Shown: piece by piece, positions 1 to 9,708 of the stretch
Layout of the letters: every line of letters starts with the position of its first letter
How positions within the stretch are numbered: the stretch's first letter is position 1
NCBI GenBank assembly: GCA_031255615.1
Contig: JAIRSD010000032.1
Coordinates: 1 to 9,708 of the forward strand
Reading direction: 5' to 3'
Length of the DNA: 9,708 bases
Source of the DNA: Treponema sp.
Lineage (GTDB): Bacteria; Spirochaetota; Spirochaetia; Treponematales; Breznakiellaceae
Made by a program: the position numbers and the translations under genes
The notes under the pieces: model-generated
Seen by the model: the letters and a program-made list of their open reading frames with translations, nothing else
Told to the model about the DNA's origin: nothing
Databases searched by the model: none

Positions 1-5
1 TGAAT

Positions 6-11
6 CCTCCT
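6..11 (-). promoter_or_regulatory. Ribosome binding site for a gene off the left edge
   Basis: Read on the minus strand this is AGGAGG, with only five bases (ATTCA) between it and the window edge. A start codon would therefore fall immediately outside the window. Together with the promoter at 43-71 it indicates a minus-strand gene that begins at the left boundary and is not visible here. Its product cannot be judged. Confidence 0.6.
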
Positions 12-92
12 GTTAGCTCTTACTAACACAAAAACCGGCATGAAGATAGCATCTTCTAACTTTTATGTCAACACTGTTTCCTATTGCTAACA
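11..92. promoter_or_regulatory. Operator-like CTAACA/TGTTAG half-sites around the left promoter
   Basis: A perfect 6-base inverted repeat, TGTTAG (11-16) and CTAACA (23-28) with a 6-base spacer, lies between the predicted transcription start and the ribosome binding site. Further copies of the half-site are CTAACT at 56-61, inside the -35/-10 spacer, and CTAACA at 87-92, upstream of the -35. The same-strand copies are 33 and 31 bases apart, about three DNA turns each, so they would face the same side of the helix. This is what an operator array for a dimeric repressor of the promoter at 43-71 would look like. The regulator is not identifiable from this sequence. Confidence 0.5.
43..71 (-). 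promoter_or_regulatory. Sigma70-type promoter reading leftwards off the window
   Basis: On the minus strand there is a perfect -35 hexamer TTGACA (66-71), a 17-base spacer and a -10 hexamer TATCTT (43-48). Transcription would begin near position 36 and reach the AGGAGG at 6-11 after about 25 bases. Spacing and hexamers are close to consensus, so a fairly strong, probably repressible promoter is likely. The promoter is bracketed by CTAAC half-sites described separately. Confidence 0.75.
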
Positions 93-129
93 TGATTAGG
101 GTAATCTTACTCGATTTGCGTCCATTGCC

Positions 130-192
130 GGGCGCATCCCCGGACCGGGGGCCGGGCCGGGGCCGCTCCGCAGCCCTCCTATCCCTGCGCGG
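130..192 (-). repeat. Degenerate copy of the modular hairpin element
   Basis: Read against the full copy at 7255-7343, the order of parts is the same. GGGCGCA (130-136) is followed by a GC hairpin with arms CCCCGG (138-143) and CCGGGG (145-150). Next come GCCGGG and CCGCTCC, the counterparts of the second core, and then CTATCCC and TGCGCGG, the end of the first core. The hairpin between the cores is missing or reduced to a few bases, and the second core is altered. I read it as an old, decayed copy in reverse orientation. It overlaps no gene. Confidence 0.5.
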
Positions 193-282
193 ACGAAAAG
201 GGCCGCCCGGTCCGCCTTCCATTGGAAATACCGTTCCCTACCACGGGCGAAAAGGGCGGGGAACAGCGAAGGGGAAAGCCGT

Positions 283-493
283 GCCGGCAGGGAGGCCGGC
301 TGCCGCCGTTCCATGCTCCGGGTTTTGGCGGAAAACGTAAACATTCACCGGCCGGTGAAGCGGCAGGGAGGCCGAACCAAAACGCGCGCGTTTTGGTTTG
401 CCAACCCGCGCAAGGGATAGAAGCGGAATTTTTGCGAAGCAAAAATTGGAGCGGATAGCCCGGTTTTTGGCGCGGAGCGCCAAAAATGCGCCC
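283..493 (+). repeat. Modular hairpin element, copy A, with extended left module
   Basis: Intergenic region without a gene. The left module has GCCGGCAGGGAGGCCGGC (283-300), a palindrome TTCACCGGCCGGTGAA (344-359) and a second GGCAGGGAGGCC (363-374). The main element follows: a perfect 24-base palindrome (375-398); first core GCGCAAGGGATAGAAGCGG (408-426); a 9-bp hairpin with GAA loop (427-447); second core GGAGCGGATAGCCCGG (448-463); a 10-bp hairpin with GGA loop (464-486); and TGCGCCC (487-493). GCGCA at 408-412 can pair with TGCGC at 487-491, and GGG at 414-416 with CCC at 459-461. The two cores, the order of parts and the paired stems recur in the copies at 7255 and 9497. Function is unknown; it could be a structured RNA or a REP-like or architectural DNA element. 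Confidence 0.85.
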
Positions 494-498
494 TACAT

Positions 499-604
499 AC
501 CCGCGATACGCGGAGTCCCCTAAACCGGGAACCACCGGGAAAACTCTTTCATTTAGTTTTTCGATGCGTTATGATCGTATAACAATGACAAATAGGAGAA
601 ACCC
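499..604 (+). promoter_or_regulatory. Probable promoter and ribosome binding site of the Fe-S scaffold gene
   Basis: A small hairpin, CCGCG (501-505) and CGCGG (509-513), and a direct repeat ACCGGGA (524-540 region) separate the repeat element from the gene. A -10-like TATAAC lies at 578-583. The -35 is poor; TAGTTT at 554-559 is the best candidate, 18 bases upstream. The ribosome binding site AGGAG (594-598) lies six bases before the ATG at 605 and fixes the start. The same TATAAC hexamer precedes the lipoprotein gene at 8214. Confidence 0.45.
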
Positions 605-829
605 ATGTTTGAGGAACAGGTAAAGAGCGCCCTTGATAATGTACGACCCTCCCTCCAGGCCGACGGCGGGGATGTGGAGTTCGTTTCGATCTCCGACGAC
701 GGCACCGTTTCCGTGAAGCTGACCGGCGCCTGCGGCGGCTGCCCGATGGCGGAGATGACGCTGAAAATGGGCATCGAAAACTATCTTAAAAAAGAGGTTC
801 CCCAGGTTACCGCGGTGGTCGGCGTTTAG
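605..829 (+). CDS. NifU C-terminal-domain Fe-S cluster scaffold protein (Nfu type)
   Basis: A 74-residue stand-alone NifU C-terminal (Nfu) domain. Proteins of this family hold a labile [4Fe-4S] cluster between two subunits and pass it to apo-enzymes in the cytoplasm. The sequence shows the family hallmarks. The stretch VRPSLQADGGDVEFV (residues 13-27) matches the conserved RP-LQ-DGGD block. The CxxC pair is Cys43 and Cys46 in GACGGCPMA, and these are the expected cluster ligands. The length fits single-domain Nfu proteins; longer members add an N-terminal IscU-like or A-type domain that is absent here. The start is fixed by AGGAG six bases upstream. The gene stands alone, with a terminator-like hairpin about 30 bases after the stop, and the next gene is on the opposite strand. 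It is likely a housekeeping maturation factor, and I am confident of the family. Confidence 0.95.
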   Translation: MFEEQVKSALDNVRPSLQADGGDVEFVSISDDGTVSVKLTGACGGCPMAEMTLKMGIENYLKKEVPQVTAVVGV

Positions 830-860
830 ACGCCCGGTGCGCGGGGCCTTTGACCCCGAG

Positions 861-909
861 GGTGGACCGGGCCGATTCCCCGGAATGGGCTGCGGCCCGG
901 TTTTCCACC
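861..909 (+). terminator. Rho-independent-type terminator after the Nfu gene
   Basis: ACCGGGCCG (866-874) pairs with CGGCCCGGT (893-901), a 9-bp GC-rich stem whose 3' arm runs into TTTT (901-904). The stem can be extended by GGTGG (861-865) with CCACC (905-909). It lies about 30 bases after the stop of the Fe-S gene on the same strand. A second inverted repeat, TTCCACCGG (903-911) with CCGGTGGAA (943-951), overlaps it. That one could act on transcripts arriving from the glucosidase on the minus strand, though it lacks a good U tract. Confidence 0.6.
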
Positions 910-961
910 GGAAAATTCGAATGACAGCGCGGCCAACAATTCCCCGGTGGAACTCCCCTTC

Positions 962-2314
962 CTAAAGGTTCTCCCCGTTGGACCGGATCAGGTCCCGGTA
1001 CCAGTAGCCGGAGTCTTTGACGATCCGCTGCTGGGTTTCGTAGTCGCAGTAGACCATGCCGAAACGGTCGGTGTAGCCCTTGGCCCACTCGAAGTTGTCG
1101 GTAACGCACCAGTGGAAGTAGCCCCGGACATCGACGCCGTCTTCGGCGGCTTTTTTCAGGCAGCGGAGGTAGCGGTGGAGGAAGTCGATCCGGGCGGGGT
1201 CGTGGACCTTGCCGTCCAGGGATACCACGTCGGCGCAGGAAAGGCCGTTTTCCGTTATGTACAGGGGTTTTTTGTACCGTTCCCACAGGAACCTGGGGCC
1301 CCAGTACAGAGATTCCGGCGTTACCGGCCATTTGGCGGCGGTAAAGGCGTAACCGTCCTTGCGGGGGACGATCTCCGCGCCCAGGGGGCCGCCGGCCCGG
1401 ATCTCCATGCCGTTGTAGATGTTCTGCCCCAGAAAATCCAGGGGTTCGCTGATAACCGCCATGTCGTCGGAGCCGATCCTGGGCATGTGCTGACCGTAGC
1501 GCTTGTAGAGTTCCTCGGGGTACGCGCCAAAGAACACAGGGTCGCTCCAGAGGGTGACGGACCAGAAACAGCGGTCCGGGGGGATGTACAGGAAGGCCCT
1601 GCGGGCGGCTTCCTGATCTTCCGGGCTCTCCGTGGCGGGGTAGTGGGCGCTGCAAGTGGGGGCGTAGCCGATTTGGGCATCCTTGACGGCGCCGCGAAGG
1701 GCCTGGACCGCCCGGCCGTGGGCCAGGAGGACGTGGTGGGCCATGAGCAGGGTGTCCCAGATGGGGAAATGGATCCCCGGAGCGTGTTCAGTGCCGTCGT
1801 AGGAAATACCGATGAAGCACTGGGGCTCGTTAAAGGTGATGTAGTTTTTCAGCCGGTCCCCCAGGCGTTTCGCCACAGCCGCGGCATAGTCGGCGAACCA
1901 ACGGGGGCTGTCGGGGTTCATCCAGCCCCCCCTGCGGAACAGGGCGTAGGGATAGTCCCAGTGGTACAGGGTGGCGTAGGGAACGATTCCCGCCGCGATG
2001 ACGCTGTCCAGCAGCCGGTCGTAGAAGTCCAGCCCCTTTTCGTTTAGCTTCCCGTCGCCGTCGGGGAAGATCCGGGGCCAGGCGATGGAGAAGCGGTAGC
2101 CCTTGTAGCCCAACTGCTTCATAATGTCCACATCTTCCTGGTAGCGGTGGTAGTGGTCCGCCGCCGCTTCCCCGGTGGAGCCGTTTAGTATCCTGCCGGG
2201 CTCATTGCAGAACATATCCCAGATCGACGGCCCCCTGCCGTCCTCGGCGACCGCCCCTTCAATCTGGTAAGAGGCGCTGGCCCCGCCCCACACAAAATCT
2301 TTACGAAATCCCAT
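962..2314 (-). CDS. GH1 family beta-glucosidase
   Basis: A 450-residue glycoside hydrolase family 1 enzyme, the usual length for bacterial members. It is a retaining (beta/alpha)8-barrel hydrolase that releases sugars from beta-glucosides. The N terminus has the family signature FVWGGASASYQIEGA (residues 7-21). The acid/base is Glu163 in FNEP, the nucleophile is Glu355 in YITENG, and His118 and Trp402 sit in the expected subsite -1 segments. The end of the subsite reads DNFEWAKGY, with Glu409 and Trp410. This fits ordinary beta-glucosidases rather than 6-phospho-beta-glucosidases, which carry a Ser/Lys/Tyr phosphate pocket. No signal peptide is seen, so it is probably cytoplasmic, acting on imported cellobiose-like oligosaccharides. 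The ATG at 2314 is chosen over an upstream in-frame TTG at 2344, because AGGAGG (2319-2324) lies four bases before it. It is last in the minus-strand block, 54 bases after the DUF4340 gene. The exact substrate is not determinable. Confidence 0.95.
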   Translation of the reverse strand: MGFRKDFVWGGASASYQIEGAVAEDGRGPSIWDMFCNEPGRILNGSTGEAAADHYHRYQEDVDIMKQLGYKGYRFSIAWPRIFPDGDGKLNEKGLDFYDRLLDSVIAAGIVPYATLYHWDYPYALFRRGGWMNPDSPRWFADYAAAVAKRLGDRLKNYITFNEPQCFIGISYDGTEHAPGIHFPIWDTLLMAHHVLLAHGRAVQALRGAVKDAQIGYAPTCSAHYPATESPEDQEAARRAFLYIPPDRCFWSVTLWSDPVFFGAYPEELYKRYGQHMPRIGSDDMAVISEPLDFLGQNIYNGMEIRAGGPLGAEIVPRKDGYAFTAAKWPVTPESLYWGPRFLWERYKKPLYITENGLSCADVVSLDGKVHDPARIDFLHRYLRCLKKAAEDGVDVRGYFHWCVTDNFEWAKGYTDRFGMVYCDYETQQRIVKDSGYWYRDLIRSNGENL

Positions 2315-2339
2315 ATTGCCTCCTCTCGGAACGAATCCG

Positions 2340-2371
2340 ACCAAACAAATATAAACGCCGCAACGGCGCTA
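2340..2371 (-). terminator. Small hairpin between the DUF4340 and glucosidase genes
   Basis: On the minus strand, CGCCG TTG CGGCG (2356-2368) directly abuts the DUF4340 stop codon and is followed by the T-rich run TTTATATTTGTTT. It is a short 5-bp stem, so at most a weak terminator or attenuator. It could lower glucosidase expression relative to the exporter genes. No clear promoter is seen in the remaining bases before the glucosidase start. Confidence 0.35.
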
Positions 2372-3799
2372 CAGGTATGGCATCACCTTTTGCCCTTCCA
2401 GGAGCCGCTCCAGATCGGCCTGGACCTTGGTGATATAGGCGGAGTAGGTGTAGAACGGGCGGCCCCCGTCCAGGCTGGTAAGGACCCGGCGGGAGGGGGC
2501 GCTGTAAAAGGACACCCGGTTCAGGGGGCGGCCGTCCCGGTAGTGGTACACGATTTCCATGATGGGCTGGGCCCCGGAAGGGATCTTTTCCTCGGTGTAT
2601 TCATCGTAGATGGCGCTGAGGAGGGTTTGATAGTAGCTGCGGAAAAAGCTGGTGTCTAGTTCCAGCCCCCCGGCCTCCACCTTAAGATCGTCCCCCTCCC
2701 CGGTCAGGGTAAAGACGACCCGCCGCTGGGGGCTGTTTACCTCCACCCGGGCGATGTCGTCGATGAAGGGGAGAATGATCATCCGTTCCATTAGATCCCA
2801 CCAGGTTGCCTCCAGCCAGGGGACATTGGAGGCCGCCGCCTGGTAGACGAGTCCGACCCCTTCCCGGCAGATATACACGTTCCCGTCCTCGTCGGGTTTG
2901 GACGCCGCAAGGCTAAAGGCTTCCGGTTCCTGGGCGCCGCTGATTGAGGCGGTGGAGTAGGGTGCGGCCAAACCGTAGCGGGCCAGGTCTCCCTCCCCGT
3001 CGATTCGGGCAACGGCCTGGTCCGCATAGAGGCCGGGGATGCCTTTCAGGATGTTGTAGCCCCGATCCATGTTCAAAGAACCTTCGATGGGGCCGGAAAT
3101 CCGGTATTCGTTTTTAAGGCGGCCCGGCTGGGATTCGCGGGCCTCATAGACCACCCGAATCGGGCCGTCCCGCCGCGCCGTACCGCCCAGGACGATTTCT
3201 TTAAACTCGAAGCCGCCGAAACCGTCGTCCGGAAGCTGGGGGCTTATCTCCTTATCCACAAAATCGAAGACTCCCTGGAAGAAGGTTTCGGTATCCCACT
3301 TCCCCGCCTGGTACACGCCGGGCCGGTCCTCCAGGCGGACGTAGATCCCCGCCCCATCGGGAACATCGTTGCCGATGTAAAGGGTGGTCCCTTCGCCGGA
3401 CTTGGTTTTAATAACCGCCTGGGCCCTCGGCGCATCCAGGCCGTAGACCGCCGGGTCCGCGTCCTCCGCCACAAGGCCCCGGGACAGGATGCTGTCGCAG
3501 ATATCGACGATTCGGGACAGGGGAAAATTGTTGACGATTAAAGACTCCCAGCCGGGGATAACGGGGGGGTCGCCGGGAAGGATCGTGTATTCCCCCTTTT
3601 CATTCCGCACGGTAACCGATTCAAGGCCCCCGTATTTTTCATCCCGGTAGTCGATAAGGTACTCCACATCGGGAAGCTCCAGGGGGGCCGGGACATTCAC
3701 ATCCTCCCGTTTAAGGAAAACCAGGCCCAGACTCAGGAGCCCCAACAGAACCGCCATGGACAGGATGAACACCAGCCGCTTCGCCGTCTTTTTTGCCAT
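2369..3799 (-). CDS. DUF4340 domain membrane-anchored protein
   Basis: A 476-residue protein with one N-terminal transmembrane segment (about residues 9-29) after a lysine-rich start. The bulk is therefore expected outside the cytoplasmic membrane. The region from about 80 to 190 carries DUF4340-like features: 'VYGLDAPRAQAVI' (118-130), 'TLYIGNDVPDGAGIYVR' (139-155) and 'GVYQAG' (161-166). A second similar set, 'RYGLAAPYSTASI' (274-286) followed by 'NVYICREGVGLVYQ' (307-320), suggests an internal duplication. The family is typically encoded beside GldG-type ABC auxiliary proteins and its biochemical role is unknown. The start at 3799 is supported by AGGAGG (3805-3810), which overlaps the stop codon of the upstream gene, so translation of the two is probably coupled. 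It is likely a periplasmic-facing partner of the ABC complex. The family call is good and the function is open. Confidence 0.85.
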   Translation of the reverse strand: MAKKTAKRLVFILSMAVLLGLLSLGLVFLKREDVNVPAPLELPDVEYLIDYRDEKYGGLESVTVRNEKGEYTILPGDPPVIPGWESLIVNNFPLSRIVDICDSILSRGLVAEDADPAVYGLDAPRAQAVIKTKSGEGTTLYIGNDVPDGAGIYVRLEDRPGVYQAGKWDTETFFQGVFDFVDKEISPQLPDDGFGGFEFKEIVLGGTARRDGPIRVVYEARESQPGRLKNEYRISGPIEGSLNMDRGYNILKGIPGLYADQAVARIDGEGDLARYGLAAPYSTASISGAQEPEAFSLAASKPDEDGNVYICREGVGLVYQAAASNVPWLEATWWDLMERMIILPFIDDIARVEVNSPQRRVVFTLTGEGDDLKVEAGGLELDTSFFRSYYQTLLSAIYDEYTEEKIPSGAQPIMEIVYHYRDGRPLNRVSFYSAPSRRVLTSLDGGRPFYTYSAYITKVQADLERLLEGQKVMPYL

Positions 3800-3808
3800 A
3801 GGTGCCTC

Positions 3809-5290
3809 CTAGCGATGACGGCGGCGGAGCCAGACCACAATTCCCGCGACCAGCACCGCCAGGGGAACCAGGACGATGAAGATGAGGGTCAGGACAATCA
3901 ACTGGGCCGCCGTGATGTTAAGGTTGGCGAACCCCAGGGTCTTGTCCTCGATGTAGATCCGGTCTTCCCGTCCGGCGAGGCGGCCCACAAGATCCAGAAA
4001 ATAGCTGGAGTTGGCGATATTGACGTTCCCCAGGATGCTGGGATTCCAGGCCGCCACGGAACCGCAGACAAGCACATGGGCGGAAACTATATCGCCCGCC
4101 ACATTGTTCCGGGTAGAGCTGCTCTGGGCAAGGAGGGGAATATCGACCCGCAGATCCTGGGGACGGGGGCTCCAGTCCAGGGGCGCGTCTGCCGGGCGGA
4201 TGCCGGCGCTGGAGGGGGAGCGGACAAGGACCCGGGTCTTCCGGTAACGCTGGGCGTCGAAGACCAGCCGCAGGGGTTGGGACTGGGGCAGCACCGGATA
4301 AAGCCCCTTTTGCGCCGCCGGGTTTGGAGAATCATCCTCCACAAAATCCGCAAAGGACAGGTAAGGGGAATCCCCGATGATCCGGCCATTGTCGGTCTCA
4401 AAGACTATCCCCGGATCCACCGCCAGCCCCCATTCCGCAAGAAAGGCGTCCAGGTTGGGCAGGGCGGACTCTCCGGGCCGGTCCGGCTGGCTGGGCTGCC
4501 CCAGGGAGGCAAGGTAGAAGAAGATCCGGTTGTTCCCCCCTTCCAGGAAACTGTCGATAGCCTCCAGTTCCTCGGAAGAAAGGTCCCGCTCCGGGGCCGC
4601 GAGGATCACCAGGCTGGCCTCCGGGGGGATCGGTTCGGTAAGCGTGTTGACGGTGGCCACTTCCCAGACATTCATCTGGAGAAGCCCCGTAAAGGCGTCA
4701 ACGTTAATCTCCCCGTGGCCGCCGATCACCGCCGCCAGGGAGCTTTTCCTGCTGGTTACCCCCAAGAGGGCGCTGGTCACGGCCTGTTCCGCCTTGGAGG
4801 AGGATATAAAACTGCCGTAATAGGAGGTTTGAATATTAAAGAGGTCCCGGGGGCTGAGTTTCCGGCTCCGGTTTCCCGAGGCGATCACAATGTCGTTGAG
4901 AGAGGGATCTATATCGGGGAAGCGGCTGGGAAAATCGGGATTGCGGATCAGGTCCACATATTCAAGCCGCACCCGGGACGAATACTGGGCGTAGCGGCTG
5001 ATTACCTCGTTGGCCTGGATAAAATATTCCGCGGGGCTGCCGGTAACAAAACTGGATTCGGTGTTGAGGACGTAAATATTCACGTCCTGATCCAGGGCCG
5101 CCAAAAAATCCTTCGTCTGATTGGAGATTTCGAAGATTCTATCCTCGGTAAGATCGATGTCCAGGGGATACCGCTCAAAGAGGGCCGTAAGGACCACGTT
5201 AAAAAGGACTATGACGGCGATCACCACAACGGTGATACAAACCGAAACAACGCCGTAGCGCAGGTTCCGTTTACCAAAAATCTTTGCCAT
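3809..5290 (-). CDS. GldG-family ABC transport auxiliary protein
   Basis: A 493-residue protein with an N-terminal transmembrane segment (about 13-36), a large extracytoplasmic-type region, and a C-terminal transmembrane segment (about 462-487) ending in WLRRRHR. Just after the first helix is DLTEDRIFEISNQTK (46-60), the conserved 'DLT...Y-LS-T' block of the ABC_transp_aux/GldG family. In Bacteroidetes GldG works with GldA and GldF in gliding motility and secretion. In other phyla the same set is widespread and its substrate is unknown, so a gliding role should not be assumed. The gene begins three bases after the permease stop. Its ribosome binding site GGAG (5298-5301) lies inside the permease's last codons, again indicating coupled translation. 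Base composition is like its neighbours and it looks intact. Confidence 0.88.
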   Translation of the reverse strand: MAKIFGKRNLRYGVVSVCITVVVIAVIVLFNVVLTALFERYPLDIDLTEDRIFEISNQTKDFLAALDQDVNIYVLNTESSFVTGSPAEYFIQANEVISRYAQYSSRVRLEYVDLIRNPDFPSRFPDIDPSLNDIVIASGNRSRKLSPRDLFNIQTSYYGSFISSSKAEQAVTSALLGVTSRKSSLAAVIGGHGEINVDAFTGLLQMNVWEVATVNTLTEPIPPEASLVILAAPERDLSSEELEAIDSFLEGGNNRIFFYLASLGQPSQPDRPGESALPNLDAFLAEWGLAVDPGIVFETDNGRIIGDSPYLSFADFVEDDSPNPAAQKGLYPVLPQSQPLRLVFDAQRYRKTRVLVRSPSSAGIRPADAPLDWSPRPQDLRVDIPLLAQSSSTRNNVAGDIVSAHVLVCGSVAAWNPSILGNVNIANSSYFLDLVGRLAGREDRIYIEDKTLGFANLNITAAQLIVLTLIFIVLVPLAVLVAGIVVWLRRRHR

Positions 5291-5293
5291 TTT

Positions 5294-5998
5294 TTAGCTC
5301 CACCTTCTTTTTTCCAGCGTCCTGGTTGTTAAGAACAGAAATATGCCGCAGACACTGACAAAGAACACCAGGTTCGCTATACCCAGAATGCCGTTGGTGA
5401 TGGGGGTATAGCGTCTCATAAACGAAATTCCCTGGAGGATCATACGGATCAAGGGGTTGGGAACAATGTCGATAAGGGCGTCCATCAGGAAGATGGCGAG
5501 GACCGCGGTAAAGCAGCCGATGGCGGCAATAGCCTGATTCTCCGTAAGGGAGGAGATGAACTGCCCTATGGCGATAAAGGCGAAGCCCAGCAGCAGGATG
5601 GCGATGTAGCTGCCCCACACCATGGCCCAATTTACCTGGGCCAGCACTTCCACCACGACGGCGTACACCATGGTCATGGTCACCCCGGCGGTGTAAACCG
5701 CCGCCGCGGCCAAAAATTTACCCACCGTTATGGCCCCCAGCGTTACCGGGGCGGTGAGCAGGACCTGATCGGTCCGGTGCCGCCGGTCTTCGGACATGAG
5801 CCGCATGGTCAGCACCGGGGTAAGGAACATGACGATGTTGATCATCACCTGGAACACCGGGGTCATGACGGTGCTGTTGGCGTAAAGGACCCCCGCGAAA
5901 AAGAAGTACCCCGTAAGGAGGTAGAAGACCCCCAAATAGACATAGCCGATGGGGGAATTAAAGTAGGCCCCCAGTTCCCGTTTGATTACCGCAATCAT
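5294..5998 (-). CDS. ABC-2 type permease (GldF-like)
   Basis: A 234-residue integral membrane protein with about six hydrophobic segments (roughly 17-38, 49-66, 96-118, 127-149, 155-175 and 205-224). This is the usual ABC-2 permease topology. The cytoplasmic loop MRLMSEDRRHRTDQVLLTAP (65-84) matches the conserved region of GldF/NosY-type permeases that follows the second helix and contacts the ATPase. It would form the membrane channel of the exporter and work as a dimer with the ATPase encoded just upstream. The start codon overlaps the ATPase stop as ATGA (5995-5998), the tightest coupling in this cluster, with AGGAGCGG just before it as ribosome binding site. The substrate is unknown. Confidence 0.88.
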   Translation of the reverse strand: MIAVIKRELGAYFNSPIGYVYLGVFYLLTGYFFFAGVLYANSTVMTPVFQVMINIVMFLTPVLTMRLMSEDRRHRTDQVLLTAPVTLGAITVGKFLAAAAVYTAGVTMTMVYAVVVEVLAQVNWAMVWGSYIAILLLGFAFIAIGQFISSLTENQAIAAIGCFTAVLAIFLMDALIDIVPNPLIRMILQGISFMRRYTPITNGILGIANLVFFVSVCGIFLFLTTRTLEKRRWS

Positions 5999-7125
5999 GA
6001 TTCCGCTCCTTCGCCGGGCTTCTCTACCGTTTCATCCTCCGGCCCGCCGTCCGGGAGGTCTTTTTCCCCGCCGTCCGGGAGGTTTTCTTCCCCGCCGTCC
6101 GGAAGGTTTTCTTCCCCGGCATCCCTGTCTTCCCCTCCGGCGGCGGAAACACCGGCCCCCGGCGCGGCGGCCCCGGCAATGGCGGAGAGGGCGGCATTGT
6201 CCCCGGCGGTAAGCCGGATAAAGGCGTCTTCCAGGGAAATGCTGCTCCGCCGCAGGGAGAGAATCGGCCGGTTCTGGGCCGCCAGAAGCCGGAAAAGGTC
6301 CCGCCGCGGGTCGCCGTCCGGTTCGGTTTCCATCTCAAAGTCCGCGGCCCCCGCCTCCGCCGCCTGATCCAGCAGACGGACAGACGTAAGCCCCGGCAAA
6401 GCCTTGATCCGGGGAAGCAGGTCCCCACCGGGGCCCTCCACGGAAAGGAACAGCCGGTTGTCCCCCAGGCGGGAAAGGTTTTCCAGACTGTCGTCGGCGA
6501 TCAGGACCCCGTTGTTGATCACGATAACCCGGTCGCAGACCGCCTGAACTTCCTGCAATATATGGGAAGAAAAGATAACCGCCGATTTTTTCCCCAGCTC
6601 CCGGATAAGGCCGCGGATCTCCAGGATCTGCACCGGGTCCAGACCCACGGTGGGTTCATCCATAATAAGGAGCCCCGGATTCCCCAGCATGGCCTGGGCC
6701 AGCCCCACCCGCTGCTGAAAACCCTTGGAAAGGTTCTTGATGATCCGTTTCCGGACCGGCCCGATTCCCACGGCCTCGCAAATTTCATCGATGTGGGCCT
6801 TTTTGGGGAGGGAAATTTTCTTAAGATCAAATAGAAAGGAAAGGTAAGACGAAACCGTCATCTCCGGGTACAGGGGAGGACGCTCCGGGAGGTAGCCCAC
6901 ATGCCGTTTAGCCCCGATAGGGTCTTCCAGGATCTCGCAGCCATTCACCGTCACGGTCCCGGCGGATGAAGACGTATACCCGGCAATGATGTTCATGGTG
7001 GTGGATTTTCCGGCCCCGTTGGGACCGAGGAATCCGAGAACCCCCCGACTCCCCAGGCTGAAACTGATGTTATCCACCGCCCGCCGGGCGCCGTAGACCT
7101 TCGTAACGTTCTGTACGTTTACCAT
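5995..7125 (-). CDS. ABC exporter ATP-binding protein (GldA-like) with acidic repeat tail
   Basis: A 376-residue nucleotide-binding subunit. Walker A is GPNGAGKST (34-42), the signature is LSKGF (132-136), Walker B is LLIMDEPT (152-159) with catalytic Glu157, the D-loop is GLD (161-163), and the switch histidine is His188 in SSHIL. At the Q-loop position the sequence reads GYLPERPPLYPEMTV (78-92), with Glu where most ABC proteins have Gln; I recall this form from the GldA/Nos-like group. After the ATPase core, residues 221-310 form the accessory region usual in exporters with ABC-2 permeases. A low-complexity acidic tail (about 315-376) contains three 8-residue repeats of the form EENLPDGG (338-361) and looks dispensable for catalysis. 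The start at 7125 has AGGAG (7132-7136) six bases upstream and lies about 13 bases from the predicted transcription start. First gene of the operon. Confidence 0.93.
   Translation of the reverse strand: MVNVQNVTKVYGARRAVDNISFSLGSRGVLGFLGPNGAGKSTTMNIIAGYTSSSAGTVTVNGCEILEDPIGAKRHVGYLPERPPLYPEMTVSSYLSFLFDLKKISLPKKAHIDEICEAVGIGPVRKRIIKNLSKGFQQRVGLAQAMLGNPGLLIMDEPTVGLDPVQILEIRGLIRELGKKSAVIFSSHILQEVQAVCDRVIVINNGVLIADDSLENLSRLGDNRLFLSVEGPGGDLLPRIKALPGLTSVRLLDQAAEAGAADFEMETEPDGDPRRDLFRLLAAQNRPILSLRRSSISLEDAFIRLTAGDNAALSAIAGAAAPGAGVSAAGGEDRDAGEENLPDGGEENLPDGGEKDLPDGGPEDETVEKPGEGAES
6043..6114 (-). repeat. Three tandem 24-bp repeats in the ATPase tail
   Basis: Three in-frame 24-base units encode EENLPDGG, EENLPDGG and EKDLPDGG. 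The units are nearly identical at DNA level (each contains the plus-strand string CCGCCGTCCGG), which indicates recent expansion by slippage. Copy number can change without breaking the frame, so it may vary between strains. Confidence 0.85.
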
Positions 7126-7144
7126 TCGACACTCCTAAATTTGC

Positions 7145-7173
7145 AGGATACCAAAAATCGCCCGAAATGTCAA
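7145..7173 (-). promoter_or_regulatory. Promoter of the ABC exporter operon
   Basis: On the minus strand there is a perfect -35 TTGACA (7168-7173), a 17-base spacer (7151-7167) and a -10 TATCCT (7145-7150). Predicted transcription starts near 7138, which leaves a leader of only about a dozen bases containing AGGAG (7132-7136) before the ATG at 7125. There is no room for a leader-based regulator, so control is probably at initiation. No clear operator palindrome is seen around it. Confidence 0.78.
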
Positions 7174-7213
7174 AAAAATCGCCCCGGATCGGCGATTCCC
7201 GCTTAAAAAAGAT

Positions 7214-7232
7214 CCGCGCATCGAAGGGATAG
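7214..7232. repeat. Possible solo fragment of the hairpin-element core
   Basis: The plus strand reads CCGCGCA, then three bases (TCG), then AAGGGATAG. Apart from that interruption this resembles the start of the first core (CGCGCAAGGGATAG). It lies 23 bases from copy B and in the opposite orientation. The match is short and may be chance. Confidence 0.25.
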
Positions 7233-7254
7233 TTGTAGATCATCGTAATATGAA

Positions 7255-7524
7255 GGGCGCATCCCCGCCTGCGGCGGGGACCGGGCTATCCGCTCCAACA
7301 AAAACCCTGCGGGTTTTTTGTTGGCCGCTTCTATCCCTTGCGCGGCTTAAAAACGGCATCCCTGCCGTTTTTAAGCTTGGGGTTTTTGCTCCGCAAAAAC
7401 CCCGGAACACGGAAACAGCCGGCCTCCTGCCGGCGCATCCCTGCCCTTTTGCGCCTGGTGAGTTTTGGCTTTGCAAAAAATTCAAAAAGCGTATCCGCGA
7501 TCTACGCCGGCCTCCCTGCCGGCG
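7255..7524 (-). repeat. Modular hairpin element, copy B, with extended module
   Basis: Intergenic, no gene. On the minus strand, from 7403 downwards, the parts are: an 11-bp hairpin with GGA loop (7379-7403); a perfect 14-bp hairpin with GGGA loop (7345-7376); first core GCGCAAGGGATAGAAGCGG (7325-7343); a 13-bp hairpin with GCA loop and one bulge (7295-7324, its outer bases shared with the second core); second core GGAGCGGATAGCCCGG (7281-7296); an 8-bp hairpin with GCA loop (7262-7280); and TGCGCCC (7255-7261). Both cores are identical to copy A while every stem differs. Further out are GCCGGC palindrome modules at 7418-7434 and 7506-7523. The latter is an exact 18-base match to 283-300 in copy A. 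Confidence 0.85.
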
Positions 7525-7608
7525 CGGCCATCATACCGGCGGATTCCCCCGCCGAGGCGGAACAGGACTCGCAGGCCGCTTAACCTAAAAAATCAGATAT
7601 ATAGACGG

Positions 7609-7707
7609 AAAAAATTGACCACCAGGGCAAAAGAACGCACGAAGGGCGGAGATCGGATGCGCTTATTCCTTCCTTCGTGTTCCCTTGCGCCCCTTCGTGG
7701 TTAAAAT
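7609..7707. repeat. Imperfect inverted repeat with CACGAAGG units
   Basis: The left arm (7609-7646) reads roughly AAAATTGACCAC ... CACGAAGGG. The right arm (7667-7707) is its imperfect reverse complement, CCTTCGTG ... CCTTCGTGG TTAAAATT, around a spacer of about 20 bases. The unit CACGAAGG occurs at 7639-7646 and, reversed, at 7672-7679 and 7692-7699. Repeats of 'ACCACGAAGG...CACGAAGG' type are common intergenic elements in many bacterial genomes, as I recall. Their translations (NHEGxxGNTKEG-like) are often mistaken for proteins, so I do not call a gene here. Confidence 0.6.
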
Positions 7708-7741
7708 TCCTGGCGAGCCGTAATTGGCGCCCTGGCGGTTT

Positions 7742-7769
7742 CCCCGCCGGACCGGGAAGGCCGGCGGGG
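7742..7769. repeat. GC-rich hairpin downstream of the minus-strand gene remnant
   Basis: CCCCGCCGG (7742-7750) pairs perfectly with CCGGCGGGG (7761-7769), a 9-bp stem with a 10-base loop. It lies about 28 bases beyond the stop of the minus-strand remnant, where a terminator would be expected. Neither strand has a real T tract after it, so the role is uncertain. Confidence 0.4.
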
Positions 7770-7796
7770 TTGCTGTTCGGGAAACGAAGCCCCCCG

Positions 7797-7901
7797 CTAC
7801 TTGAGAATCTCCCGCAGGGCCCCACGGTTGCCGGGCAGAAGGGGGCTGGCGGCGGGGGCGGCGTAGATTTCGTCGAGCCGGGGCTGGAGAAGGGCCGGGA
7901 G
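7797..7901 (-). pseudogene. C-terminal remnant of an unidentified minus-strand gene
   Basis: On the minus strand the bases from about 7901 to the TAG at 7797-7799 read as a plausible protein C terminus of about 34 residues, including LQPRLDEIYAAPAASPLL and ending GALREILK. Nearly all codons end in G or C (about 29 of 34), the pattern of intact genes in this window. The same DNA read in the plus frame lacks this bias. Upstream on the minus strand the frame continues only through sequence belonging to the opposite-strand TOBE fragment. The N-terminal part of the gene is therefore gone. I do not recognise the family. Confidence 0.45.
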
Positions 7902-7904
7902 ACA

Positions 7905-8138
7905 AAACTTATGGCCCGCCCCGAATCCCTGCGCCTGGTGGACGCCGGCAAGGGCTATGTGGACGGTAAAATCAAGATGAACGTCTACCTGGGGCACAGC
8001 ATTGAAACCTTCGTGGAAACTGCCTACGGCGAAACGCTGATCCAGATAGACGATCCCCTGTCCAAGAAGATATACGAAGAGGGGGACGCGGTCTCGATAG
8101 ACTTTGCCCCGGAACGGGTGCGGATCCTCCAGGACTGA
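7905..8138 (+). pseudogene. TOBE-domain C-terminal remnant of an ABC importer ATPase
   Basis: The last 77 or so residues look like the C-terminal TOBE domain of PotA/FbpC/MalK-type importer ATPases. ARPESLRLV opens the segment (the RPE-L motif), followed by VYLGHSIETFVET and KKIYEEGDAVSIDFAPERV before the stop at 8136-8138. Family members are about 350 residues, with an N-terminal ATPase domain carrying the Walker motifs. None of that is present, and upstream of about 7905 the frame runs into an unrelated remnant coded on the other strand. An ATG at 7911 with GGGAG nearby could still give a 75-residue peptide, but a lone TOBE domain has no known activity. The most likely reading is a deletion relic. 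Confidence 0.75.
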
Positions 8139-8177
8139 TCTCCAGGAGCCTGTTGTACTTCAGGATTGAACACGGGA

Positions 8178-8205
8178 TTGCTTTTTTTGGGTTCTGTGCT
8201 ATAAC
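8178..8205 (+). promoter_or_regulatory. Promoter of the propeller lipoprotein gene, near-leaderless
   Basis: TTGCTT (8178-8183) and TATAAC (8200-8205) are 16 bases apart. The predicted transcription start (about 8211-8213) falls immediately before the ATG at 8214. No purine-rich ribosome binding site is present in the bases before the ATG. The message may therefore be leaderless or nearly so, unlike the other genes here, which have clear AGGAG-type sites. Confidence 0.5.
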
Positions 8206-8213
8206 AAACCATT

Positions 8214-9468
8214 ATGAAGATACAATTTTTTACAACTTTGTTTATTTTACTCATGTTTCTCTCATGCCGGGCACAGAAAACAGCCGAAACAGAGCAGGGT
8301 CTCACTGCGGTAGAAGTCGATGTAGAAACGGATCCGTACGCCGATGGAGAAGCGGATCCGTATACTGATGTAGAAACGGATTTGTACGCCGATGTGGAAG
8401 CGGAGCTGTACGCTAACGAGGCTATTCTGGTGAATGAAGATATTGTCAAAGCGCTGGAAGTTTGGACTCGTGCGACAAGTTACCCCTTTAGAGCAGACAG
8501 TATTGAACATATAGTCTATGGAAACGGTCGGTTTGTTGCGACCGGTTATCATCGTATTAAATTGGCATATTCAGATGACGGCGATGAATGGATTGCCGTA
8601 CAGGATGATGTTTTTGGTTCAACAAAGATGGCCCGTTGTATCACCTATGGAAACGGCCGGTTTGTTGCCGCGGCCTATGGTGATAAAATAGCATATTCAG
8701 ATGATGGTGAAACATGGGCGCTCGTAGAAAATACCGATCTTGGTGATAACTATACCGAAGGTATAGCCTATGGAAGCGGATGTTTTGTTATTGTTGGTTG
8801 GAATAGGGATTGGGCCAATGGCATGATAGGATATTCAAACGATGGCGAAACATGGACGCTTGTAGAAGACGACAGTCTTGCTATTGGAGGACTTAACTGT
8901 ATTACTTATGGAAACGGGATGTTTATTGCCGGAGGCGCCGATGGCAATGCGGTATATTCACATGATGGCAAAACATGGACAGTCATGCCGGGCAGGCCAT
9001 TTGAAGATAGAGATGTTAGAATTATTACCTATTGGTAATGGGCGCTTTGTTGTCTTTTGTAGTTATTTTCAGGGCTATAACCCGATGACGTATTATTCTG
9101 ACAATGGTATAGATTGGACCGCTGTATCAGACGGCCCATTTAAATGGTTTCCTGTTTATAATATTGTTTATGGAAATGAAATTTTTATTGCCGGGAGTCA
9201 TAGCGCAAGAATGTCGTATTCATTTGATGGTAAAATATGGCATTCAGGATCAGATGGAGATGGTTTTATAATAAACGCTTTAGCTGGACCCGGAGATAAT
9301 CTCGGGGGCATTGCTTACGGCAACGGCCGTTTTGTTATTGGCTGTGGGGTTGGCATTAGCGGCAGTAGTAGAATAGCATGGTGTGATATGCCTGTGATTG
9401 CTAATGACATTCATGATGAATTAGATGTCTTGCCGAACGACGATGAAGGCAATGGAGAGTTTAAATAA
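8214..9468 (+). pseudogene. Seven-bladed propeller lipoprotein gene, interrupted by a frameshift
   Basis: The first frame encodes a lipoprotein signal peptide, with hydrophobic residues 5-16 and LSC, Cys18 being the likely lipidated residue in a loose lipobox. Four 8-residue acidic repeats (37-68) follow, then beta-propeller blades of the form YGNGRFV ... YSDDGETW. After four blades it stops at 9036-9038. One extra T in the TATTGG at 9030-9035 causes this, since the blade motif needs TATGGT. Removing it joins the frame to 9468, giving 417 residues with three more blades, seven in total, and an acidic C terminus. The YSxDGxxW motif resembles Asp-box/BNR repeats; the substrate or partner is unknown. 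The gene is AT-richer than the rest of the window, suggesting different ancestry. It could be a true pseudogene, a recent mutation or a sequencing error. The truncated 274-residue product would lack three blades. Confidence 0.8.
8322..8417 (+). repeat. Four tandem 24-bp repeats coding an acidic linker
   Basis: Four in-frame 24-base units encode VETDPYAD, GEADPYTD, VETDLYAD and VEAELYAN, between the lipidated cysteine and the first propeller blade. They form an acidic, tyrosine-containing spacer that would hold the propeller off the membrane. Alternate units (1 and 3, 2 and 4) resemble each other most in their first residues, suggesting a 48-base duplication step. Confidence 0.85.
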
Positions 9469-9496
9469 TTTTTTTATAATATTAAATCACAATGTT

Positions 9497-9671
9497 GGAG
9501 TTTGCGCTCCGCGCAAACTCCGTAAGGCGAAAATCCGCATGGATGCGGATTTTCGCCCGCGCAAGGGATAGCAGCGGAAATACCGGAAGCCCCCGGCAGG
9601 GACCTGCCGGGGGCTGAGGAATTGGAGCGGATAGCCCGGTTTTTTGCGGCGAAGCCGCAAAAAATGCGCCC
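9497..9671 (+). repeat. Modular hairpin element, copy C
   Basis: Starts 28 bases after the lipoprotein stop. Order of parts: an 11-bp hairpin with TCC loop (9497-9521); a 13- to 15-bp hairpin (9526-9557); first core GCGCAAGGGATAGCAGCGG (9559-9577), one base different from copies A and B; a long GC hairpin with arms GCCCCCGGCAGG (9589-9600) and CCTGCCGGGGGC (9603-9614); second core GGAGCGGATAGCCCGG (9624-9639); an 11-bp hairpin with GAA loop (9640-9664); and TGCGCCC (9665-9671). GCGCA (9559-9563) pairs with TGCGC (9665-9669), and GGG (9565-9567) with CCC (9635-9637). The remaining bases to the window end show nothing I can assign. Confidence 0.87.
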
Positions 9672-9708
9672 AGGTTATCCGGTTAGCGGCCTTCCCGCCT
9701 TACTTGAG

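Follow-up and report, generated by a model that had tools for sequence, protein, structure and literature searches.

Flavo-1 copies in the Treponema locus

The window analysed here is a stretch of 9,708 nucleotides from Treponema sp. (assembly GCA_031255615.1, contig JAIRSD010000032.1, positions 1 to 9,708). It carries three copies of Flavo-1 (RF01705), a family filed as a small RNA (sRNA) gene, although the evidence presented below favours mobile DNA. Pfam matches between the copies identify a NifU-like protein, a family 1 glycosyl hydrolase, a DUF4340 protein and ABC-transporter proteins. The nearest relatives of the window are termite-gut-type Treponema metagenome-assembled genomes (MAGs), and the nearest genome found (G011, locus L005, Treponema sp. 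isolate Cd354_bin128) is 80% identical to it over positions 968-7177.

Copy 1 (408..493, plus strand) consists of core 1 (408-426), arm 1 (427-449), core 2 (448-463), arm 2 (about 462-486) and the closing TGCGCCC (487-493). Copy 2 occupies 7255..7343 on the minus strand (core 1 7325-7343, core 2 7281-7296, closing box 7255-7261) and copy 3 occupies 9559..9671 on the plus strand (core 1 9559-9577, core 2 9624-9639, closing TGCGCCC 9665-9671), the unit measuring 86 to 113 bp. Each core string occurs exactly three times in the window, compared with shuffle means of 0.01 for core 1 and 0.30 for core 2. These counts, together with reading of the closing boxes, bear out the preliminary description of this DNA, which had reported three copies with nearly fixed cores and a closing TGCGCCC. 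That description also took the arms to be unrelated in each copy; this holds for arm 1 (33-44% identity) but not for arm 2, which is 81% identical between copies 1 and 3.

The comparison with Rfam proposed at that stage identified Flavo-1 at 395-469 on the plus strand (36.3 bits, E 7.2e-5), 9550-9645 on the plus strand (34.5 bits, E 2.2e-4) and 7275-7351 on the minus strand (27.6 bits, E 0.018). All three copies match the full-length covariance model; none reaches its gathering score of 42 bits (27.6-36.3), and relatives with the same core 1 string exceed it (e.g. L048, L089). The window copies share the cores and layout of the family but have other arms, and the second arm, by the outer helix, falls outside the 76-position model. 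A likeness to strings in Flavobacteria had been suggested tentatively; the family is Flavo-1 and is frequent in the family of Flavobacterium gillisiae.

A second Rfam family, TD-2 (RF03162), was recognised by the same comparison. It lies immediately 5' of copy 2 (7341..7434, minus strand, 63.0 bits, cut-off 48.7), and a TD-2-like structure marginally below the cut-off (48.0 bits) lies immediately 5' of copy 3 (9467..9562, plus strand). The preliminary description had counted the hairpins before core 1 as part of the element; those of copies 2 and 3 thus score as a separate family, and copy 1 has at this place only a palindrome found by reading, AACCAAAACGCGCGCGTTTTGGTT (375..398), which gives no TD-2 match at E up to 1. 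TD-2 also stands directly 5' of Flavo-1 at L085 (2610-2702) and L113 (1947-2038), its final bases running into the Flavo-1 match or stopping a few bases short, as in the window, while L151 and L152 have TD-2 matches without adjoining Flavo-1. A composite unit of TD-2 and Flavo-1 may exist. TD-2 itself reportedly comes from a 2017 paper.

Fold and covariation of the core

RNA and DNA parameters give the three window copies a common fold: an outer helix GCGC/GCGC, a GGG/CCC helix, two isolated steps of 2 bp each, then arm 1, and arm 2 beside the outer helix. The z-scores of copies 1, 2 and 3 are -2.54, -3.16 and -4.55 for RNA and -4.50, -4.45 and -6.34 for single-stranded DNA. The arrangement of helices and arms is the one proposed originally; the symmetric purine-rich internal loop of that proposal is not, because it is paired in these folds, in the G275 copies and in the counts from 201 copies given below. 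It is a helix of two 2-bp Watson-Crick steps, each flanked by A.G/G.A pairs, and compensating variation of both steps is visible in the copies of G275, a single-contig flavobacterial genome. The outer helix reads GCGCA/TGCGC in the window and GCGTTA/TAACGC in the flavobacterial sets.

We counted covariation by script in 201 distinct copies, which remained of 234 candidates when 33 without the closing box were dropped; the search pattern fixed parts of the core and left the pairs x, y and z free. Watson-Crick combinations occupy the three variable pairs in 193, 197 and 194 copies, compared with maxima of 133, 177 and 162 over 2000 shuffles, a null that takes no account of relatedness. The bracketing pair is A.G in 188 copies and G.A in 9, with 4 exceptions (197 versus a shuffle maximum of 189). 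GGG/CCC is changed to AGG/CCT in 20 copies and to GCG/CGC in 8, in a set where the pattern required pairing of this helix. The flavobacterial group (83 copies) contributes most of the variation; among the other 118 (98 copies from spirochaete-titled loci, 7 from Bacteroidota, 5 from a Clostridiales MAG, 5 from L153-L207 and the 3 window copies) two-sided change was seen eight times at x, once at z and never at y. At one orthologous site the core module is AGCG/AGCG, AACG/AGTG or AGTG/AACG depending on the species, which provides evidence of covariation free of the relatedness concern.

Strong covariation had initially been claimed from the three window copies. What they display is replacement of whole arms and not stepwise covariation, which appears in the larger sets. 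Neither cores deprived of paired arms nor a family of few copies without covariation, the outcomes that had been named in advance as contrary to the structural model, was what we found.

Distribution and placement

In the genome survey, where Flavo-1 model matches at E up to 0.001 were accepted, 8 of the 12 genomes of the first set carry the family, with 29 to at least 150 matches each. Among the matches listed, it is present in 69 of 195 genomes of the spirochaete family to which G002 (a Treponema MAG) belongs, an extension to related spirochaetes that had been suggested from the outset, and in 123 of 199 genomes of the family of G006 (Flavobacterium gillisiae), for which the counts per genome (up to at least about 22) are lower bounds. 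Treponema ruminis has one core 1 string and no model match. The single-contig genomes G275 and G372 contain 45 and 41 matches, and Flavo-1 is found in the genomes of isolates (Flavobacterium gillisiae, Mesonia phycicola) too. One flavobacterial query gave a single 27-base match in 72,556 plasmid records and no match in 50,697 phage records.

Many copies also occur in a MAG titled Clostridiales Family XIII (Gx485_bin216; G003), at L003, L013, L020, L035, L037, L047, L053, L078, L098 and L115, with 36 model matches among the matches listed. They represent either transfer between phyla or a mixed bin.

Placement was analysed in G275 for 41 of the 45 elements, using open reading frames (ORFs) of at least 70 codons. 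None of the 41 lies within an ORF, though 86.7% of the 783 kb read is coding. Both neighbouring genes are antisense to the element in 14 cases and sense in 12; another 12 elements lie between convergent neighbours and 3 between divergent ones. If placement followed gap length, the expected numbers would be 26.1 (co-directional), 5.6 (convergent) and 9.3 (divergent) (p 0.003; by gap number p 0.014). The elements of this genome are therefore intergenic and strand-neutral, and avoid divergent promoter gaps. A bias towards one replication strand was considered and rejected after a test of strand runs (G275, p 0.04; G372, p 0.80).

Orthologous sites

Ten species of one flavobacterial genus were compared at three sites (of six matched, three were read). 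At site A the element is present in nine species and absent in G404, with arms that vary by species, two of them about 97-99 nt long. In the trpB-trpA gap, whose genes were checked, all ten species have an element, oriented plus in G248, G409, G403 and G405 and minus in G411, G404, G407, G410, G408 and G406; these elements form five groups with 46-80% mutual identity over the whole element, and the six minus copies begin, by reading, five bases past the trpB stop codon. The third site is occupied in seven species, degraded in G408 and absent in G410 and G407, and here the cores and arm 2 are kept while arm 1 is replaced. Taken together, the three sites indicate that arms are exchanged in place and that copies are gained or lost, replaced or inverted.

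The 94% identity between G408 (minus) and G403/G405 (plus) at trpB-trpA suggested that a single element had been inverted there. This reading was not retained: near-identical elements are frequent in the genus, which makes replacement by another copy as likely. The 90-base trpB-trpA element has 34 to 43 matches per species in the ten species (among the matches listed), some of them 100% identical elsewhere.

Two side observations were made in this genus. A second repeat of about 230-260 bp stands beside the site A element in 6 of 10 species (query 1626-1890) and has copies elsewhere in the genus. Stretches of 98-100% identity are shared by G248 and G409 (L363, L372) and by G248 and G404 (L335, L336, L346), other sites of these genomes being about 80% identical; they reflect either recent interspecies exchange or contamination.

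In the window's own group, 20 stretches from relatives were scanned with strict core strings and 10 of them were read by eye. The scan yielded a single partial core-like string (L202). In six relatives whose flank could be read there was no sign of the copy downstream of the ABC operon, and in four no sign of the copy upstream of the NifU-like gene.

Ends of the element and reassortment of arms

Of 30 loci matched by the 90-base trpB-trpA element, 24 could be aligned by pattern, and these share GCGTTA...TAACGCC followed by C (100%), A (79%), A (100%) and A (88%), with flanks otherwise unlike; some of these 24 are orthologues of each other. An outer inverted repeat GCTAGTATCC...GGATACTAGC, noticed by eye around spirochaete copies, is not a general boundary, its 9-base core occurring at four downstream places and one upstream place among 110 copies.

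Reassortment was studied in 95 copies, 4 of them from one Clostridiales MAG and the others from spirochaete MAGs. Among 303 within-genome pairs, 47 have only arm 1 in common, 12 only arm 2, and 9 both. In five of these nine the 40-base flanks are at most 70% identical on each side, and one pair is 95% identical on both sides. Arm 1 of window copy 1 is identical to that of L005 (G011), where arm 2 is 76% identical; three copies have the same arm 2 as window copy 2, their arm 1 being 28-49% identical. The proposal that stems are swapped as modules is thus upheld by the pairs sharing arm 1 only, as well as by the arm differences at orthologous sites. Recombination between copies sharing the cores would explain the reassortment.

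RNA or DNA

On its own strand a structured RNA can accommodate G.U pairs, which on the opposite strand read A.C. The Flavo-1 core has a single T.G and two C.A among 603 cells. In arm 1 (158 distinct arms) the sense strand has G.U in 54 of 1802 pairs and the antisense strand in 101 of 1953; in arm 2 (128 distinct arms) the figures are 39 of 1118 and 29 of 1098. Since a sense-strand excess of G.U is absent, the stems carry no RNA-type signature. The folding energies of copies 1, 2 and 3 are -34.7, -46.4 and -61.6 kcal/mol for the sense strand versus -30.7, -43.1 and -57.2 for the antisense with RNA parameters, and -25.1, -30.0 and -39.3 versus -22.5, -26.6 and -35.8 with DNA parameters. From the strand-specific A.G pairs and the better sense fold, combined with the lack of a G.U signature, we infer that a folded single strand is recognised, more likely DNA than RNA. 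Of the two options raised earlier, a structured RNA or a hairpin-recognised DNA element, the second is thus favoured without being settled and the first has lost ground.

Published data on transcription are available for Flavobacterium psychrophilum. According to a 2021 transcriptome paper (PMC9723704), Flavo-1 is indifferent to strand, and many matches lie outside transcribed regions and in either sense.

Search for possible mobilising machinery

The Pfam family PF01797 (Y1 transposases, including REP-associated tyrosine transposases, RAYTs; REP, repetitive extragenic palindrome) has no match in 10 of 20 Flavo-1-rich genomes, G275 and G372 among them, nor in three of the eight Flavo-1-bearing genomes of the first set, with the proviso that diverged members could be missed; it does match in 3 of 20 Flavo-1-free genomes. 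A Y1 transposase is thereby ruled out as an obligate partner as far as PF01797 detects it. A Flavo-1 match occurs in 4 of 20 scanned Y1-gene loci (L145, L150, L135, L132), a frequency that does not exclude a Y1 link, and three RAYT-like genes read in G006 are flanked by other palindromes. Reverse transcriptases (PF00078) match in 6 of 20 rich and 3 of 20 Flavo-1-free genomes, and the lack of a match in the other 14 rich genomes rules them out as an obligate partner. Between neighbouring copies no transposase of an autonomous parent was recognised among the ORFs inspected by eye, without a family-library run. Between two G107 copies (L390, 645-2521) an HNH-like-motif gene adjoins an ATPase-like gene, seen by eye; they are possibly a defence pair.

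Other features of the window

A degraded fourth copy may lie at 130..190 on the minus strand, where we read GCGCAGGGATAGG..., a short arm 1, a core 2 without ATAG, an arm 2 and TGCGCCC. Support for it is weak: core 1 is not present within 3 mismatches, and the fold is no better than that of shuffles with RNA or DNA parameters. Short palindromes like GCCGGCAGGGAGGCCGGC, found by reading, are repeated around the copies (283-301, 7420-7434, 7504-7523) and possibly constitute a further repeat family. Positions 7795-8138 resemble joined gene remnants: a TOBE_2 domain (7908-8135; 7889-8143 is 91% identical to G041) adjoins, as judged by eye, sequence like the end of the gene downstream of the ABC operon in G114. 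Overlapping reading frames at 8214-9038 and 8878-9468, with repeated YGNGRFV-like motifs seen by eye, are probably one frameshifted gene.

Discussion

Flavo-1 is present in many copies, is placed between genes on either strand, ends sharply in unlike flanks, and differs between species in presence and orientation at orthologous sites. Its arms are exchanged in place, the two arms reassort, and changes of the core are compensatory. We consider it probable that Flavo-1 is a non-autonomous, REP-like intergenic mobile repeat, which spreads and is replaced as DNA and is recognised as a folded single strand. The sense strand would fold as a three-way junction, in which the GGG/CCC helix is extended by two modules (two Watson-Crick pairs each, with A.G and G.A pairs on either side), one variable arm would cap the inner helix, and the second would adjoin the outer helix. 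Some enzyme or host repair process may recognise this folded strand, single-stranded DNA more likely than RNA, and copy or move the unit, while copies sharing the cores would recombine and so exchange their arms. The window copies are explicable without any function for the neighbouring genes.

Several points weigh against a mobile DNA repeat. No enzyme was found, and no target-site duplication was seen in the flanks at site A, trpB-trpA, the third site and the 24 aligned loci. The data on orthologous sites come from one flavobacterial genus, absence at a site may be loss instead of non-insertion, and the flanks of relatives in the window's group are too diverged to reveal an empty site. The ORFs of G275 were called by length only. 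The strand-specific A.G pairs and the better folding of the sense strand, seen with both parameter sets, would be shown by an RNA as well. Finally, the F. psychrophilum paper reports that some Flavo-1 matches overlap 5' transcribed regions (PMC9723704).

The last two points belong to the case for a transcribed structured RNA, an sRNA or cis-regulator whose core binds a protein or ligand and whose arms serve as spacers, in line with the Rfam class (Gene; sRNA) and the covarying core. We regard this explanation as unlikely given that copies occur in both orientations relative to genes, even within one operon gap, that many matches were reported outside transcribed regions and in either sense, and that the sense strand has no excess of G.U. 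Quite unlikely, too, is a REP moved by a RAYT (TnpA-REP), for example of Bacteroidetes subclass 2.6 with its "atypical" structures, diverged members of which PF01797 has possibly missed. Copy number, placement and hairpins are REP-like, subclass 2.6 genes are flanked by atypical structures with genomic copies elsewhere, as PMC6006769 states, and a Flavo-1 match lies within a fifth of the scanned Y1 loci; at such a density, however, about 2 of 20 neighbours are roughly expected by chance, half of the rich genomes give no PF01797 match, like three of the eight in the first set, and the RAYT-like genes of G006 adjoin other palindromes.

Copying of a Flavo-1 RNA by a reverse transcriptase, whether of a group II intron or of another kind, as in a bacterial counterpart of short interspersed elements, would suit a folded strand-specific unit without its own genes and the somewhat more frequent PF00078 matches in rich genomes, but is very improbable with 14 of the 20 giving none. 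Equally hard to credit is a chance similarity or assembly artefact: several MAG contigs do end near such repeats, and this explanation is refuted by the three exact core 1 strings, far above the shuffle mean, and by copies in isolates and on the single contigs. Returning to the mobile DNA repeat, a more specific version may be offered tentatively: Flavo-1 could be a separate class of mobile repeats common to Bacteroidota and spirochaetes, served by an enzyme of its own, distinct from Y1 transposases and reverse transcriptases, that reads the non-Watson-Crick fold of single-stranded DNA, the arms being cassettes exchanged between copies, by which the element would renew its sequence and keep its shape.

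Flavo-1 was listed in 2010 by Weinberg et al. (PMC2864571), and a 2022 review treats it among the most abundant bacterial sRNAs (PMC9029176). No description of it as a mobile repeat was found in the literature searched, most subscription journals being outside its scope. The likeness to REPs, which are patchy among genomes and recognised through their hairpins (PMC3733652, PMC6006769, PMC12306157), extends to the many intergenic, palindromic copies. CGTC-type REPs are reported in Bacteroidetes and Spirochaetes (PMC3733652), and REPs in Flavobacterium and spirochaete genomes (PMC12306157, PMC3733652). REP hairpins have a GT[AG]G or CGTC tag at the foot (PMC3733652, PMC6006769); on reading, with no systematic scan, this tag was not seen in the conserved Flavo-1 cores. 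Flavo-1 differs from REPs in its three-way junction, non-Watson-Crick core and exchangeable arms, and in not requiring a Y1 transposase gene. Miniature inverted-repeat transposable elements (MITEs) are non-autonomous, with sharp ends and short terminal inverted repeats. Flavo-1 has such repeats (GCGTTA/TAACGC in the 24 aligned copies, GCGCA/TGCGC in the window) but differs from MITEs in that its internal arms are exchanged, no target-site duplication was seen, and no parent transposon was found, without a systematic search. The motif family itself is known; what is new is its strand-neutral, arm-swapping behaviour as mobile DNA without a demonstrable REP transposase.

If Flavo-1 is mobile DNA, its label as an sRNA misleads annotation and counts of sRNAs. 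Conserved pairing with changing sequence would then, in repeat families, reflect arm exchange as well as point compensation. The bacteria carrying Flavo-1 would possess a REP-like system without the usual transposase, and the search for its enzyme would become concrete and testable.

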